Assembly: GCA_000233775.1 (NCBI GenBank)
Contig: CP003096.1
Location: forward strand, 62,001 to 126,000
Reading direction: 5' to 3'
From: Thermovirga lienii DSM 17291
Lineage (GTDB): Bacteria; Synergistota; Synergistia; Synergistales; Thermovirgaceae
DNA length: 64,000 nt
Positions within the stretch are counted from its first letter, which is position 1, and the number at the start of each line of letters is the position of its first letter. Position numbers and translations under genes: made by a program. Under the pieces are notes generated by a model. The model was not told where the DNA came from and did no database searches. It saw nothing but the letters and a program-made list of their open reading frames with translations. Below, piece by piece: positions 7,784 through 32,070 of the stretch.

Positions 7784-8917
7784 ATGAGGTTGTTGACCCG
7801 AAGCGAGCTGATAGCGTTATCGGAACACCAGAAGGCCCCCAGCGTTTCCATCTACATGCCCACGCCCCTTCCCGCAGAGCCCCGAAAGAGCCAGATAGCT
7901 TTCAAGAGTGTCCTTGGGGAAGTGCAGGACGAACTTTTGGGTCGGGGACTCAAGGAGCAGGAAGTGGAGGATCTTTTGGAACCTGCTAAGAAACTGCTTT
8001 CGAACTCCATGTTCTGGGAAAACCAAAGCAAGGCCCTTGCAGTGTTTTTGTCCGAGGGGTACGAGAGGATCTACAGGATACCCTTGGAGGTCCCCAAGCT
8101 TGCGGTGGTTTCCCGGGGATTTCACATAAAGCCCCTTTTGCCTCTTGTAGGCGGTGGGGATGACTTTTACGTTCTGTGCCTCAGCAAGAAGAAAATAAGA
8201 TTGATCCAGTGCACCAAAGAGGACTTCAGAAACGTCGACTTGGAGAACGTTCCCCAGAGCATATCCGAGGCCCTTCAGTACGAGCCCCTGGAGAAACAGG
8301 GTCAGATCGGCTCAGCCCCGGGCCGGCAGGGACTCTTTCATGGCCACGGTGCAGGAGACGAGGACTTCAAGGAAAACCTCAAAACCTTCTTGCGAATGGT
8401 GGACAAGGGAATACGGGAGCTTCTAAAGGACGAGACGGCGCCTCTGGTTCCAGCAGGAGTTGCCTACGTGGTCTCCCTGTACAAGGAGGTTGCGTCCTAC
8501 CCCCACGTGACCGAGGAGTTCGTGGAGGGAAGCCCGGACAATTTGACGGCTGAGGAGCTCTTCCAGAGGGCAAAGGCCATAGTGGAACCTATCTTCAAGA
8601 AAGAGGAAATGGAGGCAAAGGAGAAGTTTGAAGCCCTTTTGGGGACAGGCAAGGCCTCTTCCATGCTCGAGGAAGTACTGCCGGCGGCCTTTTCAGGCAG
8701 GGTGGAGGTACTCTTTGTGCCTTTGGGGGTCCAGGTGTGGGGCAAATGGAAAAAAGCCACACACGAAATGGAGCTTACCTCCAGGGAGGATCCTGAGGCA
8801 AGGGATCTTTTGGACCTTGCAGCGGTGGAGACCTTGAGGAGCAGGGGCAAGGTGTACGTGGTAAGTCCCGAGGAGGTGCCAGGAGGCAAGGATGTGGCGG
8901 CCATCTTCAGGTATTGA
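7784..8917 (+). CDS. baeRF family (bacterial eRF1-like) protein
   Basis: A 377-residue soluble protein resembling the bacterial archaeo-eukaryotic release factor (baeRF) families: an N-terminal region starting MRLLTRSELIALSEHQKAPS with SVSIYMPT, a middle domain (GDDFYVLCLSKKKIRLIQC) and an L7Ae-like C-terminal domain (GRVEVLFVPLGVQVWGKW). Such proteins are predicted to act at ribosomes; none is well characterised. A glycine- and histidine-rich loop (GLFHGHGAGDED, about residues 186-197) is typical of the group. The ATG at 7784 has GGGAGG 8-9 bases upstream, so the open frame's TTG at 7739 is not used. It stands alone as a transcription unit and ends at a clear terminator. Confidence 0.75.
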   Translation: MRLLTRSELIALSEHQKAPSVSIYMPTPLPAEPRKSQIAFKSVLGEVQDELLGRGLKEQEVEDLLEPAKKLLSNSMFWENQSKALAVFLSEGYERIYRIPLEVPKLAVVSRGFHIKPLLPLVGGGDDFYVLCLSKKKIRLIQCTKEDFRNVDLENVPQSISEALQYEPLEKQGQIGSAPGRQGLFHGHGAGDEDFKENLKTFLRMVDKGIRELLKDETAPLVPAGVAYVVSLYKEVASYPHVTEEFVEGSPDNLTAEELFQRAKAIVEPIFKKEEMEAKEKFEALLGTGKASSMLEEVLPAAFSGRVEVLFVPLGVQVWGKWKKATHEMELTSREDPEARDLLDLAAVETLRSRGKVYVVSPEEVPGGKDVAAIFRY

Positions 8918-8996: not shown

Positions 8997-9025
8997 TTGA
9001 CTTTGGAGGGTTTTGGCTATATTTT
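8997..9025 (+). promoter_or_regulatory. Promoter of the cobalamin riboswitch and receptor
   Basis: TTGACT (8997-9002), 17-base spacer, TATTTT (9020-9025). It lies directly between the preceding terminator and the riboswitch, so position and match agree. Confidence 0.6.
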
Positions 9026-9037
9026 ATGTGGGCAAAA

Positions 9038-9190
9038 CGAAAGATTAGCGGAAGGGAAATCGGGAAGCCGGTGAGAATCCGGCACAGCCCCGCTACGGTG
9101 AGGGTGACGAAGGGTGCATAGAGCCACTGGCAAGTTTGCTGGGAAGGCGCACCTGGAGGAAGACCCCAAGTCCGGATACCGATCCCTTCA
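9038..9190 (+). promoter_or_regulatory. Cobalamin (B12) riboswitch aptamer
   Basis: The segment has the conserved core of cobalamin riboswitches: GGGAAGCCGGTGAGAATC, then CCGGCACAGCCCCGCTACGG, AGCCACTG, GGGAAGGCG and the 3' B12 box AAGTCCGGATACC. It is followed by a terminator-type expression platform and then, 34 bp beyond the last terminator, a TonB-dependent receptor gene. This is the classical arrangement of B12-repressed btuB. The exact aptamer ends are estimates. Confidence 0.93.
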
Positions 9191-9197
9191 GCTGGAA

Positions 9198-9236
9198 GTC
9201 TCTTCCCGCGAGGGCCAGGGGAGAGACGGATTTTTT
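9198..9236 (+). terminator. Riboswitch expression-platform terminator
   Basis: GTCTCTTCCC (9198-9207) pairs over 10 bp, with one G-U pair, to GGGGAGAGAC (9218-9227). The loop is 10 bases and a run of six T follows at 9231-9236. It comes right after the B12 box, as expected for ligand-controlled premature termination. Confidence 0.75.
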
Positions 9237-9257
9237 GGCCCTTATGGGCCTTTTTTT
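9237..9257 (+). terminator. Second, tandem hairpin with T run before btuB
   Basis: GGCCC-TTAT-GGGCC at 9237-9250 is followed by seven T at 9251-9257. The stem is short. The left arm can instead pair with the loop of the preceding terminator (9211-9217 with 9236-9242, 7 bp perfect), so the two structures could compete. Confidence 0.55.
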
Positions 9258-9290: not shown

Positions 9291-11105
9291 ATGAAGTTGG
9301 GAAGGCTTTTTCCAGGTTTTTTGGCCATTGCGGCCATGGTGGTAGGGCTTTGGGCGGGAGCTTCCTTCGCTCAGGAAGCTTTGACCCTTGAGCCCGAGGT
9401 AGTTACCGGCTCCAGAATTTATCAGTCCTTGAAGGAGGTTCCTGCTGCCACGTACGTGGTTACAACGGAGGACATAGAGCGAAGCGGAGCTACCGAGTTG
9501 GGAGAGCTTTTAAGCTCCACGGTCCCGGGAATTTATATATCCTCCCGCAATGGCAGTACTCAAGAGGACAACATAAAGCTCAGGGGCATTGTGACGGAAG
9601 TTCTGGTTTTGATGGACGGAGTGCCTTATTACAAGGCAAGCAATGTTGCTGGTGCAGCGGCTTACGACCTGCGCTCCATCCCCTTGGAGGACATAGAGCG
9701 TATCGAGGTAGTCAAGGGGGCTGGTTCTGCTTTATACGGCTCCATGGCTGCAGCGGGTGTGATAAACATAATAACCAAAAAACCTTTGGGCGAAGGGGTA
9801 AAGATCACGGGAGGTGCAGGAACCAACGACTGGCGAGAGGGCTCCTTCAGCGGTTGGACCAGCGAGGGGGACTTTTCCGCCAGGGTATGGTACGGCCATT
9901 CAGAGGAAGGAGAGTCACGCCTGTCCTGGAATGGTACGGTTATAGACAAGAATCTTGATTACGACCAGGACTCAGGGGGTTTGACGTTGAAAAGTGGCCC
10001 ATTCACCTTCTCAGGAGTATGGGGCAAATATACCTCCCGCTGGACCTATAATGGGGATGAAGATCAACAAAAGAATGATTATTCAAGGTTTTATGTTAAA
10101 TGGGAAGGGGAAACTGCCAGGGCAATACTTTACAGGCATGAGGAGGAAAAAGAGTACAAGGACCCGTGGAGCAGAAGCTTTTACGACGACATTTCATGGG
10201 GGGCTGAGTTTTCCAAAAACCTTTCATGGAGGGACAACCTGGTTTCCTGGGGGATGTCCTTCAGGAACGAAAAGCTTTCCGGGGATACAGAAGGAAAGAG
10301 GAAAAACTACGCTCCCTTCATTGAGATTTCAAGGCCTGTTGGGGACTTTATCCTCAATGCGGGGCTGCGCTACGAGATATGGGACCAAGATAACGCAAAA
10401 GATTACAAAGAGCTGAACCCTAAACTCTCCCTGTCTTACCAGACGTTGAACGGTAATCTTTGGTACCTTTCTGCAGGAAGGTTCTTTGCCATGCCAAGTT
10501 TTTACGAGATAGCAGGCGATGGTGTTTGGGTCCTTCCCAATCCCGACTTGAAGCCGGAGAAGGGTTACAGCTATGAGCTGGGCGTCAAGGGGGAGGATGA
10601 GGACGGTCCCTGGAGCGCCAACATGTTTTATATGGACATGGAAGACAAGATTGTTTGGTCAGATTTAGGGAATTGGACAGGCGAATACGATAACGTCAAT
10701 AAGTACCGAGCTTGGGGATTGGAGCTCTCCAGGCGTTGGAAGATATCCTCCCTTTGGGATCTGGAACTTGGCGCTACGTGGATGAGGGCAGAGGAAAAGA
10801 AAAACAATCAATGGGAGAGGGCCCGTACCCCCGAATGGGACGTGGACGCTTCCTTCATATACACCAACGGCCCCCTGTCCGGCCAGGTGGTACTTCACTA
10901 CCTGGGCAACAGAAACGAAGGACAAGGTGTCGAATCCAATGTTACGACGGTGGATGCCTCCTTGGAGTACAAGGGAAAGCCTTACACCATCAGGCTTTCG
11001 GCCTACAACATCTTCGACGAGGATTACTGGGCCAGCGAGTCATGGGGAACCTATTACTACGGGCCAGAAAGAAGAGCGTATCTTACGCTGGAATACCAGT
11101 TTTAG
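9291..11105 (+). CDS. btuB: TonB-dependent outer-membrane receptor, probably cobalamin
   Basis: A 604-residue outer-membrane receptor. The signal peptide ends near GASFAQE and a TonB-box-like stretch follows (LEPEVVTGSR). The plug domain (about 40-150) shows PAATYVVTTEDIERSG, LMDGVPYYK, DIERIEVVKGAGSALYGS and GVINIITKKP. The remainder is a 22-strand-type barrel ending in the aromatic YLTLEYQF. Control by the cobalamin riboswitch immediately upstream points to uptake of B12 or related corrinoids. AGGAGAGG precedes the ATG at 9291. No TonB/ExbB/ExbD or btuCDF genes are in the window. Confidence 0.92.
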   Translation: MKLGRLFPGFLAIAAMVVGLWAGASFAQEALTLEPEVVTGSRIYQSLKEVPAATYVVTTEDIERSGATELGELLSSTVPGIYISSRNGSTQEDNIKLRGIVTEVLVLMDGVPYYKASNVAGAAAYDLRSIPLEDIERIEVVKGAGSALYGSMAAAGVINIITKKPLGEGVKITGGAGTNDWREGSFSGWTSEGDFSARVWYGHSEEGESRLSWNGTVIDKNLDYDQDSGGLTLKSGPFTFSGVWGKYTSRWTYNGDEDQQKNDYSRFYVKWEGETARAILYRHEEEKEYKDPWSRSFYDDISWGAEFSKNLSWRDNLVSWGMSFRNEKLSGDTEGKRKNYAPFIEISRPVGDFILNAGLRYEIWDQDNAKDYKELNPKLSLSYQTLNGNLWYLSAGRFFAMPSFYEIAGDGVWVLPNPDLKPEKGYSYELGVKGEDEDGPWSANMFYMDMEDKIVWSDLGNWTGEYDNVNKYRAWGLELSRRWKISSLWDLELGATWMRAEEKKNNQWERARTPEWDVDASFIYTNGPLSGQVVLHYLGNRNEGQGVESNVTTVDASLEYKGKPYTIRLSAYNIFDEDYWASESWGTYYYGPERRAYLTLEYQF

Positions 11106-11218
11106 GTGCTTAAGGCTGGTATAGCCGACGAGGAGAGAGGACCAGGACGCCCAAGTGTGCAGAACAAAGGATAATTGTTTGAAAATTGAGACATTGTAGA
11201 GAATTTTACACTTAAGTG

Positions 11219-11246
11219 TTGACAATTTGAAAAAAATAAATATACT
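11219..11246 (+). promoter_or_regulatory. Strong vegetative promoter in the gap after btuB
   Basis: TTGACA (11219-11224), a 16-base AT-rich spacer, TATACT (11241-11246). No rightward gene starts for over 2 kb, so it is not an obvious mRNA promoter; see the candidate small RNA that follows. Confidence 0.65.
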
Positions 11247-11252
11247 AACCAT

Positions 11253-11370
11253 CTGGAAGCGCAAGGCCGCCGCAACCTTTGCTTCCTGCACCTTTACTCC
11301 TTTCTCCTCTATAAATAGATATATTTTTAGAGAGAACAGAAGCCCCGGGTAGCTGGGGCTTCTGTTTTTG
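11253..11370 (+). ncRNA. Candidate small RNA, about 118 nt
   Basis: The predicted transcript starts about 7 bases after the TATACT box and ends at a strong intrinsic terminator. Near its 5' end it folds as GGAAGCGCAAGG (11255-11266) against CCTTTGCTTCC (11276-11286), with one bulged C and a 9-base loop. An A/T- and pyrimidine-rich single-stranded middle follows, then the terminator hairpin. There is no ribosome site or convincing open frame. It does not match an RNA family that I recognise. Expression is inferred only from the promoter and terminator. Confidence 0.5.
11337..11370 (+). terminator. Strong intrinsic terminator
   Basis: CAGAAGCCCC (11337-11346) pairs perfectly over 10 bp with GGGGCTTCTG (11355-11364), followed by TTTTTG. 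It can end both btuB read-through and the candidate small RNA. It lies 14 bp before the end of the leftward ygiQ gene but lacks a T run on that strand. Confidence 0.88.
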
Positions 11371-15862: not shown

Positions 15863-18787
15863 TTGAAACGAGTCTCCCATTCCATGATATCCAGCCTGTT
15901 TCTGAGGGATATGCACAATAGCCTGAAGCGGTTGGTGGAGGCCGAAAAGAGGATGTCCACGCAGAAAATGTACTCCAGGCCTTCGGACAACCCTTCGGAA
16001 GTGGCAAGGGGAATGAAGGTTGGATCTTTGATATCTCAGAGGGAGCAGTTCGTGAGGAACCTGGATGATGCAGTTACATGGCTTGAAAGCACCGAATCTG
16101 CTTTGGGTCAGGCAACGGATCTGGTGTCATCCATGAGGGAGAAAGCCATTTATGCAGGCGACGGTGCTTTGAGCGAGGTGGATCGCCTTGGAATAGCCAA
16201 GGATATTCTTGCCATGAGGGACGAGCTGATTCAGGTGGCCAACGCCAACATCCAGGGCAGATACCTCTTTTCTGGCTATGAAACCGATAGGCCAGCTTTT
16301 GTAAAGGACGACACAGGCAAGGTTGTGTATCAAGGAGACTTGGGCAGGATATCCTTCGAAATAGAGCAGGGAATAGAGGGTACGGTCTCTTTGAACGGAA
16401 GGGATGTGTTCCCCCTCAGCTTCGTGAGGAGAAAGATAACGAGTGTTGAGGTTCCTGTTGATTTTGCTTGGGAGGGTTCCTCCGAGAGGCTTGCTATAAC
16501 GGTGGGGGACAAAACTGCGGAGGTTTTTTTGCCTAAGAGATGGAATGATACCGACAGCGACAGCCTAGCAGACCTAACCGATTACGATGGCTTCGTTGAG
16601 CCTGGCGAAAACGTCAAAGGGTACACGCTGGACGAGATCGCTTCGGCCATAAATGAGAGCGAGGGAGCTAAAAAATTAGTTCACGCCAGTGTTGAGAAGG
16701 ACTATTTGACAGGGACTCAGCGGCTGGTTATTGAGAGTCTCTCTGGAGAGCCCTTGAGGGTTACCTCTGTTCCGTGGAGCGATAACGACCCTAGAGGGCA
16801 AATCCTTACCTCGAACATTGTAGGAGCCCCTTGGACGGCCTCGCAGCCAGGTTCCATTGATGTCATAGCGTCCGATGGATCCCGCTACAATGTGCCTGTG
16901 GCTAGTGGTGCTACATTGCAGGATGTGGCCCATGCCTTGATGAACGTCCCAGGCATTTGGGCGGGGGTCAGAGATGATGGCTCCATCACCCTCGCTGCAG
17001 AGGAAGGGGGATCTTTTTCCGTAGAGGCCTCGGGAAGTGCCGTAGAGCTTTTTGGGACGGCCAGAATGTCCAGGGAGACAATTGACCCAAAGGATATAAA
17101 TCGCATGAACTTGAGTTCCTTCCTTGGTTTGGAGACCTCAGTAAAATCTACCTTTTTCCCTGATGGGGCCGTGTTGGGCGACACTACCACGGACAAAATG
17201 GACATGGTTATCTCCGCAGGGGATAAAAATTTGAGGCTTTTGGTCCAGGACGATTCCGATCTCACCTTGGAGGAGCTTGCAGACAGGATAAAGGCATCGG
17301 CGGGAGATTGGCTTGAGGTCATCATCCAGAGCGACGCGACTCAAAAGAATGTTACTGACAGTTCTGCTCAGGATCTAGAGGGAGGTACGGAACGCTTGGT
17401 CCTTTATGCCAAGGACGGAAGTCCCGTCAACATATATGATAAAGAGGGCAACTGGAGCCAAAGGCTTGGACTGAGCACCGCTAACCACTCGGTGGACCTT
17501 ACAAGTGTGGAATTTCCTCCCCTGGGAGGTAGTGAGGTGCCAGTAAGGGTGGGGGTTCAGATAGGGGACGACCTCTATGAGGTTAAACTTCACAAAGATG
17601 ACGTGGTGGGTTCCGACGGCCTTCATATAGATCCTCGTTTGTTCGCCCAGGAGGTTCAAAGGCAAGTAGGTTCAGGGAAGATGGGTTTTGACCTTATAGA
17701 TGGTGATAAGGGGGTAGCCTTTTACAGCCTTACTGGGGAACCCATGAGAATCTATGATTTGTCTTATGCGGATCCTGCCTTGAACGGCATCACTTCTGGT
17801 ATCGCTGCTTCGGCGGGACTGCAAACGGGTATAGTGGGTGAGTGGGTTTCTGACAGCGCCACAGCTGGGGTCGAGGGTAGCTTTGTGATAAAGACCGAAG
17901 GGAGAAGCCTAGAGGTGTCTGTGGGACCTTCGGAGACCCTGCTGGATGTGGCGTACAAACTCAAAGACATGGCTGGAAGTTGGCTGAGCGTAGGGGTCAC
18001 GTCTGATGGGGCGGGAAACGTAAGGTTATCCCTTTCAGCAATGGATGGTGCCCCCGTTAGCGTTTATGACAATTCAGGCTCTCCTGCCAGGACTTTTTTG
18101 GGCATTAGCACCGACGTGAGGCTTTCTGCTGGTGCTTGGTCCGGGGGAGGAGCCCTCTCTGTAGCCGTAGATGGTTATGGGGATGTCGTAGATCTTCGTG
18201 GAGCAAGCTCTTTGCATGATGTTTCAGCGTTGGTCAATGCGCGGTTCGGCAATGGCGACATCCGAGCGGAGGTCGTGGACAACGGAGGAGTGGAGGAGTT
18301 GGTGTTTTATTCTCCGACGGGCAAGGTCTTTGATGTTACCCCTGCTGCTGGGATGAATGCTATTACTGCTACTACCTCTCCTAGAAGGGGCACTAGTGTT
18401 GGGCCCTATAATCAGGGAATGGTCAAAAGAACCGCTGCAAACCAACAGGAGGGGGATCTTTTTGCCCTGCTGGATGACCTTGCCAAGGCAGTGGAAAGGG
18501 GGGCCATCGACGCTGTGTCCGACTCTTTGCTTCCCAAGTTGGACGAGGCGATGGACGATCTTTTGAGAGCTAGAGCATTGGGAGGTGCCCTTCAAAGGCG
18601 GTATGAGACGGCAAAGGCCAGAATAGAGACCGATAACATATCCTTTACTGAACAGTACAGCAACATAATGGACGTGGACGTAGCGGAGGCGGCCATGGAG
18701 TTTCAGACCTCCCAAATGGTTTATCAAGCTACCTTGGCGACCATCGCTAAAGTGATACAGCCTACATTGGTGGATTACTTGTCATAG
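15863..18787 (+). CDS. flgL: Very long flagellar hook-filament junction protein FlgL
   Basis: A FlgL-type hook-associated protein of 974 residues; usual members have about 300. The N-terminal helices (MISSLFLRDMHNSLKRLVEA, RPSDNPSEVARGM, NIQGRYLFSGYETDRPAF) and the C-terminal coil (QYSNIMDVDVAEAAMEFQTS, MVYQATLATIAKVIQPTLVD) are those of FlgL. Between about residues 190 and 860 is a beta-rich insert with about six related units. Each ends in a motif like RLVLYAKDGSPVNIYD, at about residues 287, 374, 511, 617, 720 and 811. They resemble flagellin-IN type surface domains. Translation starts at TTG 15863, with AGGAG 8 bases upstream, 11 bp after flgE. Confidence 0.9.
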   Translation: MKRVSHSMISSLFLRDMHNSLKRLVEAEKRMSTQKMYSRPSDNPSEVARGMKVGSLISQREQFVRNLDDAVTWLESTESALGQATDLVSSMREKAIYAGDGALSEVDRLGIAKDILAMRDELIQVANANIQGRYLFSGYETDRPAFVKDDTGKVVYQGDLGRISFEIEQGIEGTVSLNGRDVFPLSFVRRKITSVEVPVDFAWEGSSERLAITVGDKTAEVFLPKRWNDTDSDSLADLTDYDGFVEPGENVKGYTLDEIASAINESEGAKKLVHASVEKDYLTGTQRLVIESLSGEPLRVTSVPWSDNDPRGQILTSNIVGAPWTASQPGSIDVIASDGSRYNVPVASGATLQDVAHALMNVPGIWAGVRDDGSITLAAEEGGSFSVEASGSAVELFGTARMSRETIDPKDINRMNLSSFLGLETSVKSTFFPDGAVLGDTTTDKMDMVISAGDKNLRLLVQDDSDLTLEELADRIKASAGDWLEVIIQSDATQKNVTDSSAQDLEGGTERLVLYAKDGSPVNIYDKEGNWSQRLGLSTANHSVDLTSVEFPPLGGSEVPVRVGVQIGDDLYEVKLHKDDVVGSDGLHIDPRLFAQEVQRQVGSGKMGFDLIDGDKGVAFYSLTGEPMRIYDLSYADPALNGITSGIAASAGLQTGIVGEWVSDSATAGVEGSFVIKTEGRSLEVSVGPSETLLDVAYKLKDMAGSWLSVGVTSDGAGNVRLSLSAMDGAPVSVYDNSGSPARTFLGISTDVRLSAGAWSGGGALSVAVDGYGDVVDLRGASSLHDVSALVNARFGNGDIRAEVVDNGGVEELVFYSPTGKVFDVTPAAGMNAITATTSPRRGTSVGPYNQGMVKRTAANQQEGDLFALLDDLAKAVERGAIDAVSDSLLPKLDEAMDDLLRARALGGALQRRYETAKARIETDNISFTEQYSNIMDVDVAEAAMEFQTSQMVYQATLATIAKVIQPTLVDYLS

Positions 18788-18813
18788 ACGTAAAGATGAG
18801 GAAGGAAAGGTTC

Positions 18814-19977
18814 TTGGATTTCGAGGAAAAAGGTGGCACCTCCAGGGGGGATTTTCCCCTTCATGCAGGAGGTGCCCTTTTCTTTGACCTTCAGCTATTC
18901 TCCCAAGAAAAGACGGAGGAAGCGACCCCTAGGAAGAAGAAGAAAGAAAGAGAAGAAGGCCATGTTGCCCAGAGCAAGGACCTTACCTCTGCTTTTGGCA
19001 TTTTAGGCGGTATGGTTACCTTGTTTGCTCTTTCCAAATTGTTTTGGAAGGCCTTCAAGGCGTACCTTGTTTGGGTGTTTCAGTGGGCCTCTGTAGCAGT
19101 TTGGGATGAGGGTGAATGGGCGAAGGTTACATTCAGCAAGAGTGGTGCTTTTTTCTTGAAGGTTTGGTTCCCTGTTGCTCTTGTTTGTAGCATCATATTG
19201 GTCTTTGTGCTATCACGACAGGTGGGCTTTGCGGTGACGTTCAAACCCCTTGTTCCTTCTTTTGAGCGATTCAGCCTGGTAAGGGGCCTTAAGAGGATGT
19301 TCTCTTTGCGATCCCTCATCGAGGCCATAAAAGGAATCATAAAGGCTGCTATACTTTTTGGAGTTTTGTATTTCGGACTACGAAAGGAGATTCCTGTTAT
19401 AAGGCAAATATCCTACGGGGGAGTGTATTTGGCAGCAGGGCAGGTCTTCATGATAATCTTTCGCCTCATAGTGAGGTTGGGGTTGGCCCTTCTGGTTTTG
19501 GGCGTGTTCGACTTGGGTTACCAGAAATGGGAGTTTGCCAGGTCCATAAGGATGACCAAGCAGGAAGTCAAAGAGGAGTTCAAGCAGACAGAGGGAGATC
19601 CTTTCACGAAGCAGAGGATACGGCGAAGGCAATCGGAGATAGCAAGGCAGAGGATGATAAGCCAAGTGCCCCAGGCCGATGTGGTCCTTACGAACCCCAC
19701 CCATTTGGCGGTGGCACTGAAATATGATCGCGCCACCATGAACGCTCCCAAGGTGGTTGCCAAGGGGGCCGGCTACATAGCGCTAAGAATAAGGGAGATA
19801 GCGGAGGATGCCAACGTGCCCATCGTGGAGGACAAGCCCTTGGCGAGGACCCTTTACAGGAATGTGGATGTAGGGGAGGAGATACCAGAAAGTCTTTATG
19901 TGGCCATCGCGGAAGTGTTGGCTTACGTGTATTCCCTCAAAAAAGAAAGGCAAGAAAAAGCGTATCACCCCGCCTGA
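18814..19977 (+). CDS. flhB: Flagellar export switch protein FlhB
   Basis: A 387-residue inner-membrane component of the flagellar type III export gate that switches substrate from hook to filament proteins. Family features are FDLQLFSQEKTEEATPRKKK at the N-terminus, four membrane helices (about 50-230) and the self-cleaving NPTH site (VVLTNPTHLAVALKYD) with the C-terminal cytoplasmic domain. The TTG at 18814 has AGGAAGG at good spacing and is preferred; the ATG at 18796 has no clear site. Either way about 25-32 extra residues precede the conserved start, and their codons contain a terminator-like hairpin (18835-18876). flhA is not adjacent; it is in the next block. Confidence 0.92.
   Translation: MDFEEKGGTSRGDFPLHAGGALFFDLQLFSQEKTEEATPRKKKKEREEGHVAQSKDLTSAFGILGGMVTLFALSKLFWKAFKAYLVWVFQWASVAVWDEGEWAKVTFSKSGAFFLKVWFPVALVCSIILVFVLSRQVGFAVTFKPLVPSFERFSLVRGLKRMFSLRSLIEAIKGIIKAAILFGVLYFGLRKEIPVIRQISYGGVYLAAGQVFMIIFRLIVRLGLALLVLGVFDLGYQKWEFARSIRMTKQEVKEEFKQTEGDPFTKQRIRRRQSEIARQRMISQVPQADVVLTNPTHLAVALKYDRATMNAPKVVAKGAGYIALRIREIAEDANVPIVEDKPLARTLYRNVDVGEEIPESLYVAIAEVLAYVYSLKKERQEKAYHPA
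18835..18883 (+). promoter_or_regulatory. Terminator-like hairpin inside the 5' codons of flhB
   Basis: GGCACCTCC (18835-18843) pairs with GGAGGTGCC (18868-18876). Inside it AGGGG (18844-18848) pairs with CCCCT (18856-18860). An A-rich flank lies before and CTTTTCTTT after, as in an intrinsic terminator. It sits 48 bp after the flgL stop but within the flhB frame, because no later in-frame ATG, GTG or TTG precedes the conserved FlhB sequence. It may attenuate flhB relative to flgL. Confidence 0.6.
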
Positions 19978-20023
19978 TTTTTGTTGTTTATTCGCTCCAA
20001 GGCAATTATACTTACTTTCTAAC

Positions 20024-20051
20024 TTGCAAAATTTATAGTTTTATTTATAAT
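20024..20051 (+). promoter_or_regulatory. Vegetative promoter of fliA
   Basis: TTGCAA (20024-20029), 16 bases, TATAAT (20046-20051). The -10 box lies inside the left arm of a long palindrome. Confidence 0.6.
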
Positions 20052-20083
20052 AACATTTATAATATTATAAATAAAACTATAAA
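20032..20083. repeat. AT-only inverted repeat, 21-bp arms, before fliA
   Basis: Left arm 20032-20052 and right arm 20063-20083 are perfect reverse complements over 21 bp, with a 10-base loop. The arms are almost entirely A and T and contain TTTATAGTTTTATTTATAAT. It covers the fliA -10 box and probable start of transcription and ends 28 bp before the fliA ATG. It could be an operator, a cruciform, or an mRNA 5' hairpin. No target duplication or transposase suggests a mobile element. Confidence 0.85.
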
Positions 20084-20111
20084 CGTGCCGTATGGCCTTG
20101 GGGGCGGGAGC

Positions 20112-20918
20112 ATGCCTAAGAGAGTACAAAAGCTTATGGATGCTGGAGTGTCTACGGGCGAGTTGTGGCTCAGTTATAAGGAAGCGCAAAGTCAAAGCAA
20201 TGCAGAGCAGGATCTATTGCGGGAGAAACTCTTCAAAAAATTTCAGTATTTGGTTTATTTCGTGGTGAAGAAAATGCCCCTTACCCCACCAAGAGGTTTA
20301 GACTACGAGGATTTGATCAGCTTTGGCAACATAGGGCTCTTGGACGCCATAGACAGGTACGACCCCTCTCTTGGATATGCCTTTCAGACCTATGCGGTTT
20401 CCAGAATAAGAGGCACCATTCTTGATGAGATAAGGAAATTTGACTGGTTCTCCAGGACGGGCAGGGAGAAGGTTCAGGCCTTGGAGCGCGCTGCGGAGCA
20501 ACAGTTTCAGGAAGAAGGCAAGGTAACCAATGAAGGGCTAATGAAAAGGCTCAACGTGACCGAAGAACAACTAGATGAGATGCTCAAAATATCTCAGCGA
20601 TCCTACATAGGTTATCTGGACGAGGAGCTTGTACTGGAGGACTCTGAGGTAGACCGGTGTGACATAATAGCCGGCGAAGGAGATTCCCCTCAGGAAGTGG
20701 TCGAGAGAAACGAGGAAATAGCTAAGCTTTACGAAGCTTTGGACCAACTTTCTGATAGGGAGCGAAAGCTTATAAAGATGTACTATTTCGAGTTCAAAAC
20801 CTTTAGGGAGATAGCCCGAGAGCTCGGGGTATCTGAATCTCGGGTATCCCAGCTACATAAACGCATTTTGGAAAAACTGGAACAAAAACTTTATTCTGTA
20901 ATGTACGTTGAGGGCTAA
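20112..20918 (+). CDS. fliA: Flagellar sigma factor FliA (sigma-28)
   Basis: A 268-residue sigma-70 family factor of the FliA/WhiG type that directs late flagellar genes. Region 2 shows LDYEDLISFGNIGLLDAIDR, GYAFQTYAVSRIRGTILDEI and RKFDWFSR. Region 3 follows, and region 4 ends with LIKMYYFEFKTFREIARELG and SESRVSQLHKRIL. The ATG at 20112 follows GGGAG closely; a GTG at 20085 is the other option. It heads the operon that runs through fliE to cheA, 36 bp before fliE. Its likely target is seen in GCCGATAA boxes before flgD and flgK. Confidence 0.95.
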   Translation: MPKRVQKLMDAGVSTGELWLSYKEAQSQSNAEQDLLREKLFKKFQYLVYFVVKKMPLTPPRGLDYEDLISFGNIGLLDAIDRYDPSLGYAFQTYAVSRIRGTILDEIRKFDWFSRTGREKVQALERAAEQQFQEEGKVTNEGLMKRLNVTEEQLDEMLKISQRSYIGYLDEELVLEDSEVDRCDIIAGEGDSPQEVVERNEEIAKLYEALDQLSDRERKLIKMYYFEFKTFREIARELGVSESRVSQLHKRILEKLEQKLYSVMYVEG

Positions 20919-20954
20919 AACGCGAAAAATCTTTACTTATAGGAGGGGTGCTCC

Positions 20955-21272
20955 TTGAGTTCCATTGTGGACTTGAGAGCCTTATCGGCAGCGTACGGCA
21001 TAAATGGAAAGCCTCTTGTCTCAGTGGCAAATAAGCCCGAAGAGAAAAAGGCCCAATCCTTCGATCAAGTATTGAGCAAGGGGTTTCAGAAAGTAAGTGA
21101 GCTTCAAGGTAAGGCGGAAAAAGCGATGATGGCCATGGCCACAGGGGATGTAAACGATATCTCCGAGGTGGCTGCCGCTGTCTCTGAGGCGGATGTGGCC
21201 CTTAGGTTTGCGGTGATGATAAGGGATAAGCTTCTTGATGGTTACGCCCAATTAATAAGAATGTCCGTGTGA
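20955..21272 (+). CDS. fliE: Flagellar hook-basal body protein FliE
   Basis: A 105-residue FliE, the adaptor between the MS ring and the rod. The C-terminal part is typical: VNDISEVAAAVSEADVALRF, AVMIRDKLLDGYAQLIRMSV, with the usual F-x-x-x-L-x-K pattern earlier (FDQVLSKGFQKVSELQ). TTG at 20955 is preceded by AGGAGGGG at 6 bases. It precedes fliF by 32 bp. In many bacteria flgB-flgC precede fliE; here they are 17 kb away. Confidence 0.93.
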   Translation: MSSIVDLRALSAAYGINGKPLVSVANKPEEKKAQSFDQVLSKGFQKVSELQGKAEKAMMAMATGDVNDISEVAAAVSEADVALRFAVMIRDKLLDGYAQLIRMSV

Positions 21273-21304
21273 TTTAAAGTCTTATTTGACTGGCAGGTAG
21301 GGGT

Positions 21305-22846
21305 ATGGAGTCTATAAAAGCTCTTTTTTCCAAGTTTAATGCCCTTTGGAGCTCATGGAGCAAGAGACAGAAGGTGGTCGTGGCTGCTACGGTCGCGGGC
21401 ACCCTGCTTGTTTTGGTGGGGTTAGTGATTTTTTCGGGACGGGCAAGGTACGCACCTCTTTTTTCTGATCTTCAGATGGAGGATACGGCTGCTATAGTCA
21501 GTGTCCTCAAGGAGAAAAACGTTCCCTTCAGGATTGATCCTTCTGCTTCTGCTGTTTTGGTTCCAGAAGACAGGGTTTATGAGCTTCGCTTGGAGATGGC
21601 TTCCTTAGGATTGCCCAATAGGGGCACGGTTGGTTTTGAGCTGTTTGACAACTCAAAGATGGGCATGACCGATTTTCAGCAGCAAGTGGCTTACGTGAGG
21701 GCTCTGGAGGGAGAACTGTCTCGTACCATCAGCGAGATAGAGGTGGTTCGTTTCGCCAAGGTCAACCTGGTCTTGCCAAAGCAGAGGCTGTTCCTGAAGG
21801 AGCAAGAGGAGGCCACGGCCTCCGTTTTGATTGGTTTGCGTCCCGGTAGGGAGATAAGCCAGGACCAGGTCAGGGCCATAATGAAGTTGGTGGCTTCCAG
21901 CGTGGAGGGACTCTCCCCCGAGAATGTGTCGGTGGTGGACACATCGGGCAGGTTGCTTTCGGGCTTTGCAGAGGGAGGAGAGTTCTTTTTGAGCACTGGA
22001 AGCAGCGTCACTTCCCTGCAGCGGGAGCTTGAAAGAAGGCAGGAGCATGATCTGGAGCGCAAGGTCCAAAACATGCTTTCCGCCATATACGGGCCAGGTA
22101 ACGCTGTGGTTCGAGTCAGAGTGGAGCTGGACTTCAGTCGGGTTAGCAGGTCCTCCAAGCAGTTTTTGCCTCAGGGGAACGGTAAAGGCGTGGTAAGAAG
22201 TACTCAAGTGACGGAGGAAAACTACAGCGGTACGGCTGCCCAATCCCAAGGAGTGGGAACCTCCTCCAACATTCCTGGCTATTCCGTCAGGACCTCTGGG
22301 GCGGGTTCAGGTGAGTACAGTAAGACCGACCAGGTGACCAACTACGAGATCTCTACGCTGCAGCAGAACGAGGAACGTCCTCCAGGAACAGTGAAAAGAA
22401 TTACTGCTTCGGTCGTAATAAACGGATCAGAGCAGGAAAGTCCCAAGGAGGAGCTTTACCGCTCCATTGCTTCGGCCCTGGGGGTAGATGAGAATCGGGG
22501 AGATCAACTGACGGTGACCTTTATTCCCTTTGCCTCCCCTGACCAATTTTACGCTCAGGTGGGCGATCTTGAGGGTAAAGAAGGTTTTTCCCTTGCGAAT
22601 CCAGTGGTTCTAATCGGCGGAATTGTCGGATTGGGAGCCGTGGGTTTGGGCCTTTTCATGTTGCTCAAAAGGCGTAGGACTAAGGAAGAAGAAGCCGTTC
22701 AAGAGGCAGCCAAAGCAGAGGAAGTGGAGCTTCTTCATCATCCTAAAACAGAGCTTGAGATCTTGGAGGAGCAGATATCTTTGTACTCCGAGTCCTATCC
22801 TGAGGAGGTTGCTTCCATCATTAAAAAGTGGCTGGAGGAGTCTTGA
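21305..22846 (+). CDS. fliF: Flagellar MS-ring protein FliF
   Basis: A 513-residue inner-membrane ring protein. It has an N-terminal membrane helix (VVVAATVAGTLLVLVGLVIF), the ring-building domain (ARYAPLFSDLQMEDTAAIVS, LPNRGTVGFELFD, GELSRTISEIEVVRFAKVNL), a second membrane helix near residue 430 (VVLIGGIVGLGAVGLGLFML), and a C-terminal FliG-binding tail. The length is normal. The stop overlaps the fliG start by one base (TGATG). Confidence 0.96.
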   Translation: MESIKALFSKFNALWSSWSKRQKVVVAATVAGTLLVLVGLVIFSGRARYAPLFSDLQMEDTAAIVSVLKEKNVPFRIDPSASAVLVPEDRVYELRLEMASLGLPNRGTVGFELFDNSKMGMTDFQQQVAYVRALEGELSRTISEIEVVRFAKVNLVLPKQRLFLKEQEEATASVLIGLRPGREISQDQVRAIMKLVASSVEGLSPENVSVVDTSGRLLSGFAEGGEFFLSTGSSVTSLQRELERRQEHDLERKVQNMLSAIYGPGNAVVRVRVELDFSRVSRSSKQFLPQGNGKGVVRSTQVTEENYSGTAAQSQGVGTSSNIPGYSVRTSGAGSGEYSKTDQVTNYEISTLQQNEERPPGTVKRITASVVINGSEQESPKEELYRSIASALGVDENRGDQLTVTFIPFASPDQFYAQVGDLEGKEGFSLANPVVLIGGIVGLGAVGLGLFMLLKRRRTKEEEAVQEAAKAEEVELLHHPKTELEILEEQISLYSESYPEEVASIIKKWLEES

Positions 22847-23841
22847 TGGAATTAAGAGGTAGGAAAAAGGCGGCAATATTGCTCATCCTTTTGGGGCCTG
22901 AAAGGGCAGCCCAAATATATAGACATCTGGACGAGGCTTCCATAGAGTTTCTGACCCTTGAGATAGCTTCGGTTAGAAAGATAACTTCAGAGGAGCGGCG
23001 AGCGGTTTTGAAGGAAGTCCAGGAGCTGGTCATGGCCAAGGAGTTTTTGGGGAAGGGTGGCGTCTCCTACGCTAGGGAACTTCTGGAGCAGGCTTTGGGA
23101 AAGGAGAAGGCAGAGGACTTGTTGAAGAGGCTTACCTCTAGTTTGCAGAGCAAGCCCTTCGATTTCTTGAGGACCTCAGATCCAGTGCAGCTTTTCTCCT
23201 TCTTGCAGGGAGAACACCCCCAGACTATAGCCCTCATATTGGCCTATTTGCCCCCAGACAAGGCCGCAGCCATAATTTCTGGGCTCCCCGGTGAGCTTCA
23301 GGCGGACGTTGCCTTCCGCATAGCAAAGATGGACAGCGTTTCTCCGGAGGTACTAAAAGAGGCAGAGAAGGTCATGGAGCGTAAGTTCAGCGCCGTTGTG
23401 GGAGCCGATTTCTCCAGGGCAGGGGGTATAGACTCCATAGTGGCCATAATAAATAAGGCTGGAAGGAAGACGGAAAAGCAGATACTTGAGATATTGGATG
23501 AAAAGGACCCTGAAATGGCCGAGGAGATCCGCAAGAAGCTGTTCACCTTCGAGGACATCGTGAAGATAGATGATAAATCACTGCAGAAGGTGGTGCGGGA
23601 CGTGGATACCAAGGATCTGGCCATGGCTTTGAAGGGCGTGAGCGACGATCTGAGAGAGAAGTTCTACAGGAACATGTCCAGCAGAGCAGTGGAGATGCTC
23701 AAAGAGGAAATGGAATACATGGGGCCTGTGCGCTTGCGGGATGTTGAGGAGGCCCAGCAGAAGATTGTCAACATAATCAGAAAGCTTGAAGAGGCTGGAG
23801 AGATCGTGATAGCAGGAAGTGGTGAGGACATTGTCACATAG
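22846..23841 (+). CDS. fliG: Flagellar motor switch protein FliG
   Basis: A 331-residue C-ring protein that transmits torque from MotA. Landmarks are RKKAAILLILLGPERAAQIY, the EHPQTIALILAYL motif, and the C-terminal charged helix region (LAMALKGVSDDLREKFYRNM, EEMEYMGPVRLRDVEEAQQK) that contacts the stator. The ATG at 22846 overlaps the fliF stop and has GGAGGAG upstream; the open frame to 22828 is not needed. It overlaps the fliH start. Confidence 0.96.
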   Translation: MELRGRKKAAILLILLGPERAAQIYRHLDEASIEFLTLEIASVRKITSEERRAVLKEVQELVMAKEFLGKGGVSYARELLEQALGKEKAEDLLKRLTSSLQSKPFDFLRTSDPVQLFSFLQGEHPQTIALILAYLPPDKAAAIISGLPGELQADVAFRIAKMDSVSPEVLKEAEKVMERKFSAVVGADFSRAGGIDSIVAIINKAGRKTEKQILEILDEKDPEMAEEIRKKLFTFEDIVKIDDKSLQKVVRDVDTKDLAMALKGVSDDLREKFYRNMSSRAVEMLKEEMEYMGPVRLRDVEEAQQKIVNIIRKLEEAGEIVIAGSGEDIVT

Positions 23842-24679
23842 TGAACCCAAGGGAAAAGTCATAAAAAACCTTCCCCTGGACGAAAGAGCGGTTACCATTC
23901 CTGCGTCAGAGCCCTTTCGTCTTGAGGGGGGAAGGCAGATAGATCCATATCTTTTAGTTGCTGCAGAAAAGCAGGAGCTTCAAAAAAGAGTAGCGGAGCT
24001 TTTGGATAGGGAGAGGAAGCTCAAGGAGGAGCTGGAAAGCCTGAGAGCCAAATTTATGGAGGAGCAGAAAAAGACGGAGGCGGAGCTTAGAGAGGCAAAG
24101 GAAAAGTTGGAGAAAGAAGCAATGGAGGCAAAGGAAGAAGAAAAGAAGAAAGGCTTTGAGGAAGGATACAAAGATGGATTGAAGAAGGCCTACGAGGAAG
24201 TGGAAAAAAGAGTTAAGGAGGAGTACAAGCAAAGGTTCCAGAACGTGGAAAAACAGCTGGTAAAAGCAGTAGAAACTCTGCAGAAAAACCTTGATGAGGA
24301 AATAGAAAGGTGTTCTCCCATCATGGTGGAGATCTGGAAGGCTCTTTTGCAGAGGCTTCTCAGAAAGGAAATAGACCTAGATGAGCAGCTTGTCCTCAGG
24401 GTATTCAAGGAGATAATGGCTAAAGTAAGCGACAGGCGCCGAGTTAGACTGTTTGTCAATCCCCAGGATAAGGATCTCTTCCTAAAAAAGAGCGAGGAAA
24501 TGGCCGAAATCAAAAGAGTGATAGAGGAATTCGAGCTGATTGGGGATGCAACCATAGAAAAGGGAAGTTGTATGGTGGAGACTAACCTTGGCGTTTATGA
24601 TGCTAGGTGGAAAACCCAGCTTGAAGCTATAGAAAGGGAAATACAAAGCCTGATGGGGGAATCCCTTCATGTGCCCTAG
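23819..24679 (+). CDS. fliH: Flagellar export ATPase regulator FliH
   Basis: A 286-residue FliH: a long charged coiled coil (about 40-165, rich in K and E, with GFEEGYKDGLKKAYEEVEKR), then the C-terminal domain (about 175-280) that binds FliI (LLRKEIDLDEQLVLRVFKEI, VRLFVNPQDKDLF). It belongs to the FliH/YscL group of stator-like subunits. The start is uncertain among GTG 23819, GTG 23822 and TTG 23831, all inside the fliG end. The stop overlaps fliI by 11 bp. Confidence 0.9.
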   Translation: MVRTLSHSEPKGKVIKNLPLDERAVTIPASEPFRLEGGRQIDPYLLVAAEKQELQKRVAELLDRERKLKEELESLRAKFMEEQKKTEAELREAKEKLEKEAMEAKEEEKKKGFEEGYKDGLKKAYEEVEKRVKEEYKQRFQNVEKQLVKAVETLQKNLDEEIERCSPIMVEIWKALLQRLLRKEIDLDEQLVLRVFKEIMAKVSDRRRVRLFVNPQDKDLFLKKSEEMAEIKRVIEEFELIGDATIEKGSCMVETNLGVYDARWKTQLEAIEREIQSLMGESLHVP

Positions 24680-26012
24680 GCCCTTTGTGCTTTTCAGCTC
24701 TCTGAATGAAAGGCTAAAGGACGTTGAGCTTGTTTCTGTAAACGGTAAGGTTACAAACGTTACGGGCATTATTGTGGAGTCCATAGGTCCAGACGTTCAG
24801 CTGGGAGATGTTTGCGAGATTCGCTTCAGAAAACCCAACCAACAGCCTCTTAAATGTGAGGTGGTGGGGTTCAGGGAGGAAAGGATCCTTCTAATGCCTT
24901 TGGGGGATCTGGGCAAGATAGGCCCTGGGTGCAGCGTATCAGCCACGGGAAGGCCGATGGGTGTTCCTGTGGGGGGAGGGTTGTTGGGGAGGGTGTTGAA
25001 TGGATTGGGGGAACCCCTTGACGATAAGGGTCCAATAAACTGCACTGAGTACTATCCATTGCAAAATGATCCCCCCCATCCACTGAAGAGGAAACCCGTA
25101 AAAGATGTCCTCTCCGTTGGGATACGGGCCATAGATGGTCTTTTGACCATGGGCAGAGGTCAGAGGATAGGCATCTTTTCTGGTTCGGGGGTTGGTAAGA
25201 GCACTATATTGGGAATGATGGCCCGCTACACGGAAGCCGATGTAAACGTGATCGTCTTGGTCGGCGAGAGGGGTAGGGAGGTCCAGGAATTCTTGAACCG
25301 GGACCTGAAGGAGGAAGGCATGAGACGTTCGGTTGTGGTAGTTGCCACGTCGGACCAACCTCCTTTGGTCAGACTCAAAGCAGCATTGACAGGTACGGCG
25401 ATAGCCGAGTACTTCAGAGACAGGGGCAAGAGCGTACTGCTCATGATGGATTCGATCACCAGGGTGGCCATGGCTCAGAGGGATGTGGGATTGGCTGTGG
25501 GAGAGCCCCCTGTAACCAGAGGTTATACTCCCTCGGTCTTTACCTTTTTGCCTCGCCTATTGGAGAGGGCAGGGTGCAGCGCTTCGGGTAGCATAACAGG
25601 AATATACACGGTCTTGGTGGAAGGAGACGACTTTAATGAGCCCATTGCGGATGCTGTAAGAGGGATACTAGACGGGCACATCGTTCTTTCAAGGGACCTG
25701 GCAGTGAAAAATCACTATCCTGCCATTGACGTTCTGCACAGCATAAGCCGACTTATGAAGGATATCACTTCCACCGAGCAGCAGGAGGCGGCTAGATCCC
25801 TTAGAGAAAATCTCTCCCTATATCAAGAAGCGGAGGAATTGATCAACTTAGGAGCTTACAAGAAGGGAAGCAATCCCCGATTGGATTTTGCGGTAGAGAA
25901 CAAGGACAAGTTCGACAAGTTTTTGAGGCAGGGGATAGATGAGCGCTCCACCTTTGAAGAAACTCTCAAGTTATTGTACGCACTGCCTGCATGGGGAGAT
26001 GATGAAAGTTGA
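24669..26012 (+). CDS. fliI: Flagellum-specific export ATPase FliI
   Basis: A 447-residue F1-beta-like ATPase energising flagellar export. Walker A is GIFSGSGVGKSTI, Walker B region SVLLMMDSITRVAMAQRD, with GERGREVQEFL and TRGYTPSVFTFLPRLLERAG. The length is normal. GGGGGA precedes the ATG at 24669, inside the fliH end. fliJ starts on its stop codon. Confidence 0.96.
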   Translation: MCPRPFVLFSSLNERLKDVELVSVNGKVTNVTGIIVESIGPDVQLGDVCEIRFRKPNQQPLKCEVVGFREERILLMPLGDLGKIGPGCSVSATGRPMGVPVGGGLLGRVLNGLGEPLDDKGPINCTEYYPLQNDPPHPLKRKPVKDVLSVGIRAIDGLLTMGRGQRIGIFSGSGVGKSTILGMMARYTEADVNVIVLVGERGREVQEFLNRDLKEEGMRRSVVVVATSDQPPLVRLKAALTGTAIAEYFRDRGKSVLLMMDSITRVAMAQRDVGLAVGEPPVTRGYTPSVFTFLPRLLERAGCSASGSITGIYTVLVEGDDFNEPIADAVRGILDGHIVLSRDLAVKNHYPAIDVLHSISRLMKDITSTEQQEAARSLRENLSLYQEAEELINLGAYKKGSNPRLDFAVENKDKFDKFLRQGIDERSTFEETLKLLYALPAWGDDES

Positions 26013-26455
26013 TGAAAAAACTCAAAAAAGCTGAAAAGGTCAAAAACCTTAAGGAGAAGGTTAAGGAACTAGCCTATGTTAAGTTTGTGGAGGTTCAAGA
26101 CCACTACAATTACGTGATCTCTCAAATGGAGGAGCTATCATCACAAAAAGAGCATATGGAAAAAAGTTTCGTTGACAAGTGTCAAAATGGTACCTTTTAC
26201 CCTGACGAGATATGGGGAATAAGGGTGGAAATATCTAGAATGGAGCAGGAGCTTGAAGAGATAGAAAAACGCAGAAAAGCATTGGAAGCAGAACTCGAAA
26301 ACCTAAAGGAAGAGCTGATGAAAAAGAACACAGATTTGAGGATGGCGGAGGTTTTGGTTGAAAAAAGGAAAAAGGCCTTGAAGGAAGCCCGTTTGAAGGC
26401 CGAACAGAAGGAGATAGATGAAAGGGCTACTCTCATGTTCGTGAGAGCTACATAG
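26012..26455 (+). CDS. fliJ: Flagellar export chaperone FliJ
   Basis: A 147-residue, almost wholly coiled-coil protein rich in K and E (KVKELAYVKFVEVQDHYNYV, RMEQELEEIEKRRKALEAEL). FliJ is poorly conserved, so the call rests on size, coiled coil and position directly after fliI, where FliJ acts as central stalk of the export ATPase. The ATG at 26012 overlaps the fliI stop by one base; a TTG at 26009 is possible. Confidence 0.82.
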   Translation: MKKLKKAEKVKNLKEKVKELAYVKFVEVQDHYNYVISQMEELSSQKEHMEKSFVDKCQNGTFYPDEIWGIRVEISRMEQELEEIEKRRKALEAELENLKEELMKKNTDLRMAEVLVEKRKKALKEARLKAEQKEIDERATLMFVRAT

Positions 26456-26473
26456 TTTGGGTGGTGAGCTTTA

Positions 26474-27085
26474 TTGAAGGGCCTGCCGCATCCTGACCTT
26501 TCAGGGGTAAACAGAGTTAAAAACCGTATAACTGAAATCCAAAACCTATTTGGAAGGACCACAAATGAGACTTCCAGAGGCACCTTTGTTGAGGTCTTGG
26601 ACAAAAAGATGAGCAGTGCTGAAAAGACACAGGATAAGGATTTCCCCTTTCCTTCTAATGTTAATTCATCTAGATCCTCGAAAAGTAACCCTTCTCCTTC
26701 ATACATAGATGGAATCATAGAGGAAAAATGTCGTAAATACGGAGTGGATGGGGCTTTGGTGAGAGCGGTTATAAAGATGGAGTCAGGAGGCAACCCAAGG
26801 GCAGTGTCCAAGGCTGGAGCTATGGGACTGATGCAGCTTATGCCCTCAACGGCCGAGATGCTGGGAGTAAAGGATCCCTTCAACCCCGAAGAGAACCTGG
26901 ATGGAGGTATAAGGTACTTGAAAATGCTCCTTGAAAAGTACAGGGGAGATGAGAAACTAGCCTTGGCAGCATATCACTCTGGTCCATCAAGGGTTGATAA
27001 ATGGGGTGGGATTCCGCCCTATCCCATTGTCAGGCATTACGTCAAGACCGTTTTGGCCCTTAAAGAAAGGGCTGAAAGGGAATAA
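26474..27085 (+). CDS. Lytic transglycosylase (SLT domain), probable flagellar
   Basis: A 203-residue protein whose C-terminal half (about 75-195) is a soluble-lytic-transglycosylase domain: ALVRAVIKMESGGNPRAVSK with the catalytic glutamate in KMESGG, then GAMGLMQLMPSTAEMLGV and LALAAYHSGPSRVDKWGG. It cuts the murein glycan. The first 70 residues are polar and serine-rich with no signal peptide, so export through the flagellar apparatus is plausible. It sits between fliJ and the fapA-like gene. Because the FlgJ encoded here has no hydrolase domain, this is the likely enzyme that opens the wall for the rod (inference). Translation starts at TTG 26474. Confidence 0.85.
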   Translation: MKGLPHPDLSGVNRVKNRITEIQNLFGRTTNETSRGTFVEVLDKKMSSAEKTQDKDFPFPSNVNSSRSSKSNPSPSYIDGIIEEKCRKYGVDGALVRAVIKMESGGNPRAVSKAGAMGLMQLMPSTAEMLGVKDPFNPEENLDGGIRYLKMLLEKYRGDEKLALAAYHSGPSRVDKWGGIPPYPIVRHYVKTVLALKERAERE

Positions 27086-27107
27086 TAAAAAGGGAGTGAA
27101 GGAGGCC

Positions 27108-28703: not shown

Positions 28704-28732
28704 AACCTTTTATATTTTTTATTTAGGGGGAA

Positions 28733-30847: not shown

Positions 30848-30865
30848 ATGTAGAGGGAGAAAGAA

Positions 30866-31585
30866 ATGGCTAGGAAAAGAAAAGAGGAAGAATCTTCTGG
30901 CGGAAGCTGGCTTACTACCTATGGGGACATGGTCACCCTTATTTTGACCTTTTTTATACTTCTTTATTCCTTTTCTACGATAGACGTGATCAAGTTCAAG
31001 AAAATGCTTTTTTCCTTCAAGGATGCCATAGGGGTTGTCAAAGGAGGAAAGACTTTCGAGGAGGATGAGGCTGCCTTCTCGGGTCAAACTATGGATGAGA
31101 TAGGGAAGTCCAAGAAGACCACCCAGGAAATAATGGAGACTGCAAAGAGAATCCAGAGCATATTAGAACAAGAAGGATTGAAAAGCAACGTCTCTGTTAC
31201 CGTGAGCCAGAGAGGAGTTGTGGTATCCATAGCAGAAGGGCTGCTTTTCAGATCAGGAGAGTACGAGATAAGGCCGGAGGGGAAAAGGGTATTGGATATA
31301 TTGACCAGGATAATCAAAGAACTGCCCAATGATGTCTCCGTGGAAGGTCATGCTGATAAAATCCCTGTAAGAGCAGATGGGGTGGTACGAGATAACTGGA
31401 CCCTGTCTGCCTTGAGAGCAGTGCGGATAGTGGCCTACTTTCAAACTGCGGGGGTATCGTCCAGACGCCTTCAGGCCGTGGGTTATGGAGATACCAGGCC
31501 AATAATGCCCAATGACACTCCAGAGCACAGAAACATGAACAGGAGGGCAGATATAGTCTTTTTATCGGAGAGTTCCATATTTTGA
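30866..31585 (+). CDS. motB: Flagellar stator protein MotB
   Basis: A 239-residue MotB. One N-terminal helix, TYGDMVTLILTFFILLYSFS, contains the proton- or sodium-binding aspartate (D21). The C-terminal OmpA-like domain (about 115-235) that grips peptidoglycan shows SVEGHADKIPVRA, DNWTLSALRAVRIVAYF and RLQAVGYGDTRPIMPN. GGGAG lies 7 bases before the ATG. Unusually motA is not its neighbour: it is 4.3 kb downstream on the other strand. Confidence 0.94.
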   Translation: MARKRKEEESSGGSWLTTYGDMVTLILTFFILLYSFSTIDVIKFKKMLFSFKDAIGVVKGGKTFEEDEAAFSGQTMDEIGKSKKTTQEIMETAKRIQSILEQEGLKSNVSVTVSQRGVVVSIAEGLLFRSGEYEIRPEGKRVLDILTRIIKELPNDVSVEGHADKIPVRADGVVRDNWTLSALRAVRIVAYFQTAGVSSRRLQAVGYGDTRPIMPNDTPEHRNMNRRADIVFLSESSIF

Positions 31586-31650
31586 GGGTTTTTGAGTTTT
31601 TTGTCTCTTTTTTCTCTCTTAAACTTGTATTGTGGAAGGTGGTGTCTGGC

Positions 31651-32037: not shown

Positions 32038-32070
32038 GCCTCCAAACGTTCTTAAGGAGAGTGAAATGTA

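Follow-up and report, generated by a model that had tools for sequence, protein, structure and literature searches.

Thermovirga lienii, a member of the Synergistota whose source habitat is a hot oil well, carries a predicted small RNA gene between a TonB receptor gene and ygiQ, and the assignment of this gene as a conserved feature of the genus rests on firm comparative evidence. In the 64 kb window (the whole stretch of DNA that was analysed), the gap between the two genes is filled by a promoter, a predicted RNA of three hairpins, and an intrinsic terminator. A candidate small RNA had been proposed here by a first-pass annotation made from the sequence alone, and this reading is supported by constraint across species, by the promoter and terminator, and by the non-coding character of the predicted transcript.

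The promoter consists of a −35 hexamer (TTGACA, 11219–11224, plus strand) and a −10 hexamer (TATACT, 11241–11246, plus strand) separated by a spacer of 16, as the annotation had read it, and both hexamers are identical in the congener G001. Eleven of its 12 positions agree with the consensus, and sites that match at least as well number only two, this one included, on both strands of the window, against about 0.5 expected by chance from first-order shuffles. With the start placed 7 nt after the −10 hexamer and the end at the T run, the predicted RNA spans about 117 nt (11253–11369, plus strand), so that a promoter and an intrinsic terminator of its own enclose an RNA within the range of about 50–300 nt expected of a small RNA gene. 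The unit lies downstream of the TonB receptor stop (11105) and faces the end of the convergent ygiQ (11384). The receptor is preceded by a cobalamin riboswitch (9025–9201, 101.9 bits), and the annotated placement after a B12-controlled receptor and opposite the end of ygiQ is correct. Ahead of the receptor, the riboswitch is followed by a terminator-like hairpin and T run (9237–9250), and a bacterial archaeo-eukaryotic release factor-like (baeRF) protein is encoded directly 5′ of the B12-controlled receptor (7784–8914) and also in the congener.

The predicted RNA folds into three hairpins (11255–11286, 11307–11332, and the terminator at 11334–11367) with a free energy of −49.1 kcal/mol and a z-score of −6.0, and the counterpart RNA of the congener has a z-score of −6.7. 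The terminator contributes much of this excess; the 5′ hairpin and linker alone score only moderately better than shuffles (z = −1.8). The 5′ bulged hairpin occupies exactly the positions first described (11255–11286, plus strand) and comprises 11 predicted pairs and the loop CCGCCGCAA. It is followed by a CU-rich linker, TGCACCTTTACTCCTTTCTC (11287–11306, plus strand), which does not vary between the species and is left unpaired by both predicted folds, and by an invariant, AU-rich second hairpin of 10 predicted pairs (11307–11332, plus strand). The terminator hairpin with its T run (11334–11369, plus strand) contains the perfect 10-bp stem that had been claimed, CAGAAGCCCC/GGGGCTTCTG at 11337–11346/11355–11364, followed by TTTTT (11365–11369). 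The stem is conserved in the congener, where the loop differs and the tail reads TTTAT instead of TTTTT. An automated terminator scan did not list the 11337–11364 stem, probably because the stem runs on into the T run, but the stem is clear upon folding.

The strongest evidence for an RNA gene comes from comparison with the congener, G001, the one other Thermovirga genome analysed, in which the locus is syntenic: a PAS/HD protein, a baeRF-type protein, the cobalamin riboswitch, the TonB receptor, the unit, and convergent ygiQ follow in the same order. The flanking genes are 73–77% identical between the two species, while the promoter and RNA are about 97% identical and an alignment of the whole unit over 178 nt gives 95% identity. 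Every 30-nt bin of 11190–11339 shows 90–100% identity, against mostly 30–55% in the adjoining intergenic parts. Five substitutions fall within 11182–11346 (11200, 11209, 11211, 11231, and 11263), and only that at 11263 lies within the RNA, which up to the terminator loop (11253–11346) has changed at one of 94 positions. As a control, all 97-nt windows of the aligned sequence were scored (about 24,300 over about 24.5 kb; 8,294 in the stretch holding the unit and 16,004 in a second syntenic stretch, 17101–33200). Only two clusters reach 88 identities, the unit with 96/97 and the cobalamin riboswitch with 89/97, and the best window of the second stretch scores 85/97; the unit is therefore under tighter constraint than a known riboswitch lying 2 kb from it. 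Such conservation in a sister species, as judged from aligned sequence, makes a chance origin untenable. The annotation had named loss of the promoter and stem in near relatives as one finding that would speak against an RNA gene; both are conserved in the congener, and so are the linker and terminator, far above the level of the flanking genes.

The few changes within helices also indicate which strand is functional. All 36 predicted pairs are kept in both species, and the two within-helix changes are both one-sided: A11263G, the sole change in the 5′ hairpin, converts an A-U pair into a G-U pair and keeps the plus-strand pairing, and on the loop side of the terminator stem, a G-U pair of T. 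lienii corresponds to G-C in the congener. As both changes keep the plus-strand pairs and would break those of the minus strand, the functional RNA is probably encoded on the plus strand. The annotation had looked to compensatory stem changes for support; double-sided covariation is absent from the two sequences compared because these are near-identical and represent two species only.

The constraint falls on the RNA and not on a reading frame, as expected of a small RNA gene, and the interval of about 118 nt that had been described as free of genes shows no coding signature on either strand. A small peptide gene, read from a plus-strand TTG at 11278 (11 codons) or a minus-strand GTG at 11291, is very improbable. 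The minus-strand ORF (11040–11291) is open for 83 codons in antisense overlap with the RNA gene, and its GTG resembles a good initiation site, with a perfect Shine-Dalgarno-like AAAGGAG; however, four of the five nucleotide changes in its conserved part alter the amino acid, its C-terminus is unrelated in the congener (58 vs. 83 codons), and conservation peaks outside it, so that the substitution pattern rules it out as a gene. The plus-strand peptide has no ribosome-binding site, and pyrimidine-rich wobble positions are invariant across the species. That the unit is a repeat or mobile-element remnant, or owes its conservation to recent transfer, is barely credible: the strong inverted repeat at the terminator would suit such an origin, but the unit is single-copy in the genome, occupies the same syntenic place in both species between diverged flanks, and has no match in plasmid and phage collections. 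Antisense control of ygiQ is quite improbable. The convergent gene ends facing the unit, and read-through from it would yield RNA complementary to the unit along its full length; the only possible stop for such read-through is the same hairpin as read on the minus strand, with the weak tail TTCTCTCT. Cis-antisense pairing, however, needs no sequence conservation, and the RNA is near-invariant while the 3′ end of ygiQ varies.

The relationship with the receptor may be closer than the first-pass annotation supposed. Its description of the unit as independent holds in that the unit has its own promoter, but neither species has a terminator-like site between the receptor stop and the unit, and the receptor mRNA therefore probably ends at the terminator of the unit. 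Read-through from the B12-controlled receptor is thus probable, and a second, B12-dependent source of the RNA is possible. Pressed further, this arrangement would make the RNA a 3′-UTR-type small RNA of the receptor with two sources: transcription from its own promoter and, under B12 scarcity with the riboswitch on, the 3′ end of the receptor mRNA. The riboswitch, present in the same gene order in the congener, is consistent with such a role, and 3′-UTR small RNAs with their own promoters are known, such as MicX (PMC9438474). Against it, the strong, conserved promoter predicts a separate transcript, the 76 bases between receptor and unit (11106–11181) are poorly conserved, and the start site of the receptor, considered as a feedback target, ranks only 40th of 60 start sites in the window as a partner of the linker, giving no sign of feedback. 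We regard this reading as rather unlikely.

Sequence and covariance searches place the RNA outside the known families. The annotation had not recognised a family, and Rfam likewise gives no match at its gathering thresholds; relaxing the search to E = 10 yields 17 matches, all of terminator or composition type and well below the cut-offs. Covariance models of the 5′ hairpin and linker, run against 188 Synergistota genomes, found no convincing relative in the 186 other than Thermovirga, and a full-length model run against 61 relatives found nothing convincing beyond the genus, with no match in the other genera of the family. The 62-nt model scores the Thermovirga copies at 98 bits, compared with 24 for the best other match, and the full-length model scores them at 147–152 bits, compared with 38; among the weak matches, those inspected lay in coding sequence or purine-rich stretches or belonged to unrelated terminators. 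In genome contigs, a ygiQ search found only distant bacteria, none of them a congener. As far as the searched Synergistota genomes go, the RNA appears to be restricted to Thermovirga.

The reading that we favour, by a little over even confidence, is that of a genus-conserved regulatory RNA of about 117 nt which is made from its own sigma-70-type promoter and acts in trans, independently of Hfq, through pairing of its CU-rich linker with Shine-Dalgarno sequences. Transcription would start at this promoter and end at the intrinsic terminator, and the two stable flanking hairpins would protect the RNA and expose the linker (11287–11306), which would then pair with purine-rich Shine-Dalgarno regions on several mRNA targets and block ribosome binding without the aid of Hfq. 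The analysis supports the promoter and terminator sequences, the predicted fold, the plus-strand constraint, and the non-coding nature of the RNA, and no Hfq was found: the Hfq profile PF17209 matches neither Thermovirga genome and does match the control genomes, so that the RNA does not qualify as an Hfq-dependent small RNA. From this anatomy, we infer transcription, the seed role of the linker, translational repression, and the existence of targets.

The linker has the features of an accessible CU/C-rich seed, in that it is unpaired in both predicted folds and invariant, and its complement, GAGAAAGGAGTAAAGGTGCA, resembles a translation start, with a Shine-Dalgarno sequence ahead of a spacer and start codon. 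Pairing with the start sites in the window gives best predicted duplexes of about −27 kcal/mol, strong for many genes and singling out none. Complementarity of this kind is weak evidence, because some pairing with Shine-Dalgarno sequences is to be expected of any CU-rich stretch. Genome pattern searches and the genes of the window itself were covered in the target search, and neither the pattern searches nor the two candidates examined yielded a target conserved between the species. One candidate, G000:C1:1110819 in the T. lienii genome (G000), offers a 15-nt perfect complement with an apparent Shine-Dalgarno sequence and GTG, but it corresponds to internal codons (IKGVKV) of a longer frame common to relatives, and its pairing falls from −28 to −17 kcal/mol in the congener. 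The other, the start region of a plasmid-borne aldehyde:ferredoxin oxidoreductase-like gene (G000:C2:31714–31732, minus strand), contains the 15-nt perfect complement GAGGAGAAAGGAGTA; its homolog in the congener forms a strong but different purine-rich pairing (−28.5 vs. −30.7 kcal/mol), and the site is a generic Shine-Dalgarno region rich in purines. An RNA acting mainly through protein binding or through its 5′ hairpin loop, CCGCCGCAA, would account for the loop and both stems being as invariant as the linker. This seems fairly improbable, since the linker is fully conserved though unpaired, and, up to E = 10, Rfam matches neither 6S nor any other known protein-binding RNA.

The proposed action through the linker has its closest known parallels in Gram-positive bacteria. 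The LhrC small RNAs of Listeria monocytogenes consist of a 5′ stem-loop, a single-stranded CU-rich stretch, and a terminator hairpin, and the single-stranded stretch binds Shine-Dalgarno sequences (PMC4132741). The Thermovirga RNA has the same layout, but it belongs to another phylum, exists as a single copy rather than the five of LhrC, and lacks in its linker the exact UCCC motif typical of small RNAs of low-GC Gram-positive bacteria. The C-rich regions of RsaE/RoxS likewise bind Shine-Dalgarno sequences, and RoxS needs no Hfq (PMC4409812). With RsaE/RoxS and FsrA of the Firmicutes, the Thermovirga RNA shares C-rich unpaired sequence suited to Shine-Dalgarno pairing, the linker being the candidate; in contrast to them, it has one CU-rich region only, and no sequence or structure match to them was obtained. 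Neither LhrC nor RsaE/RoxS appears among the 17 Rfam matches at E up to 10. By analogy, an LhrC/RsaE-like small RNA would be the most economical model. Literature searches found neither a description of this RNA nor any regulatory small RNA reported from Synergistota. The 2019 GC-IGR survey of Stav et al. examined 78 intergenic regions of T. lienii, of which 31 had no homologs and were termed ‘unnamed’ (PMC6429828); in contrast to such regions as described there, a homolog under strong constraint is present here. A lineage-restricted RNA that is ‘unnamed’ to a homology survey may thus become recognisable once one sister genome exists, and a constrained small RNA gene with a clear candidate seed and a candidate CodY-like control site, without a detectable Hfq, would open the study of riboregulation in Synergistota.

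Upstream of the promoter, the inverted repeat AAAATT-N14-AATTTT (11182–11207) has arms that are identical in both species and a spacer that differs at one position. Conservation sets in at 11182, exactly at AAAATT, and the preceding 20 bases differ at 8 positions; the repeat ends 11 bases before the −35 hexamer and lies near −58 relative to the predicted start. A Synergistetes CodY-like protein binds the palindrome AAAATT-N15-AATTTT in vitro, AT-rich arms with variable spacers occur in other Synergistetes genera, and no CodY-like consensus could be defined for Thermovirga in that 2022 study (PMC9318921). Both Thermovirga genomes encode a CodY-like protein in a gene order that matches the published operon (PMC9318921); in T. 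lienii, it has 276 aa with CodY GAF and HTH domains, and its gene lies downstream of xerC, proteasome-family (hslV-like), and AAA ATPase (hslU-like) genes. The repeat thus shares with the described site its arms, its position just upstream of a promoter, and the presence of the regulator, but its spacer is N14 rather than N15, and the motif is permissive. The T. lienii genome contains three exact AAAATT-N12–16-AATTTT sites, a total that the control with the reversed pattern equals or exceeds, and the other two lie inside ORFs. The repeat could serve a CodY-like activator, or it could be just an AT-rich UP element, and is a lead rather than a demonstration. That a CodY-like regulator controls the RNA through 11182–11207, and that the RNA passes amino-acid status to many mRNAs by Shine-Dalgarno pairing in an Hfq-less cell, is a tentative and rather unlikely extension of the model.

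Two further elements of this region were rejected, a 16-mer from the upstream element, whose occurrences elsewhere in the genomes do not exceed the reversed-pattern control, and the palindrome ACACTTAAGTGT beside the −35 hexamer, which carries two changes in the congener. Between a gidA-family gene and the xerC–codY-like operon, the sequence AAAATTCTCCATATAAAATATT (AAAATT-N10-AATATT), identical in both species, lies upstream of xerC (L295 1551–1572 in G000; L296 1571–1592 in G001); its spacer of N10 differs again from that of the repeat at 11182–11207, and it is a candidate site of CodY-like autoregulation.
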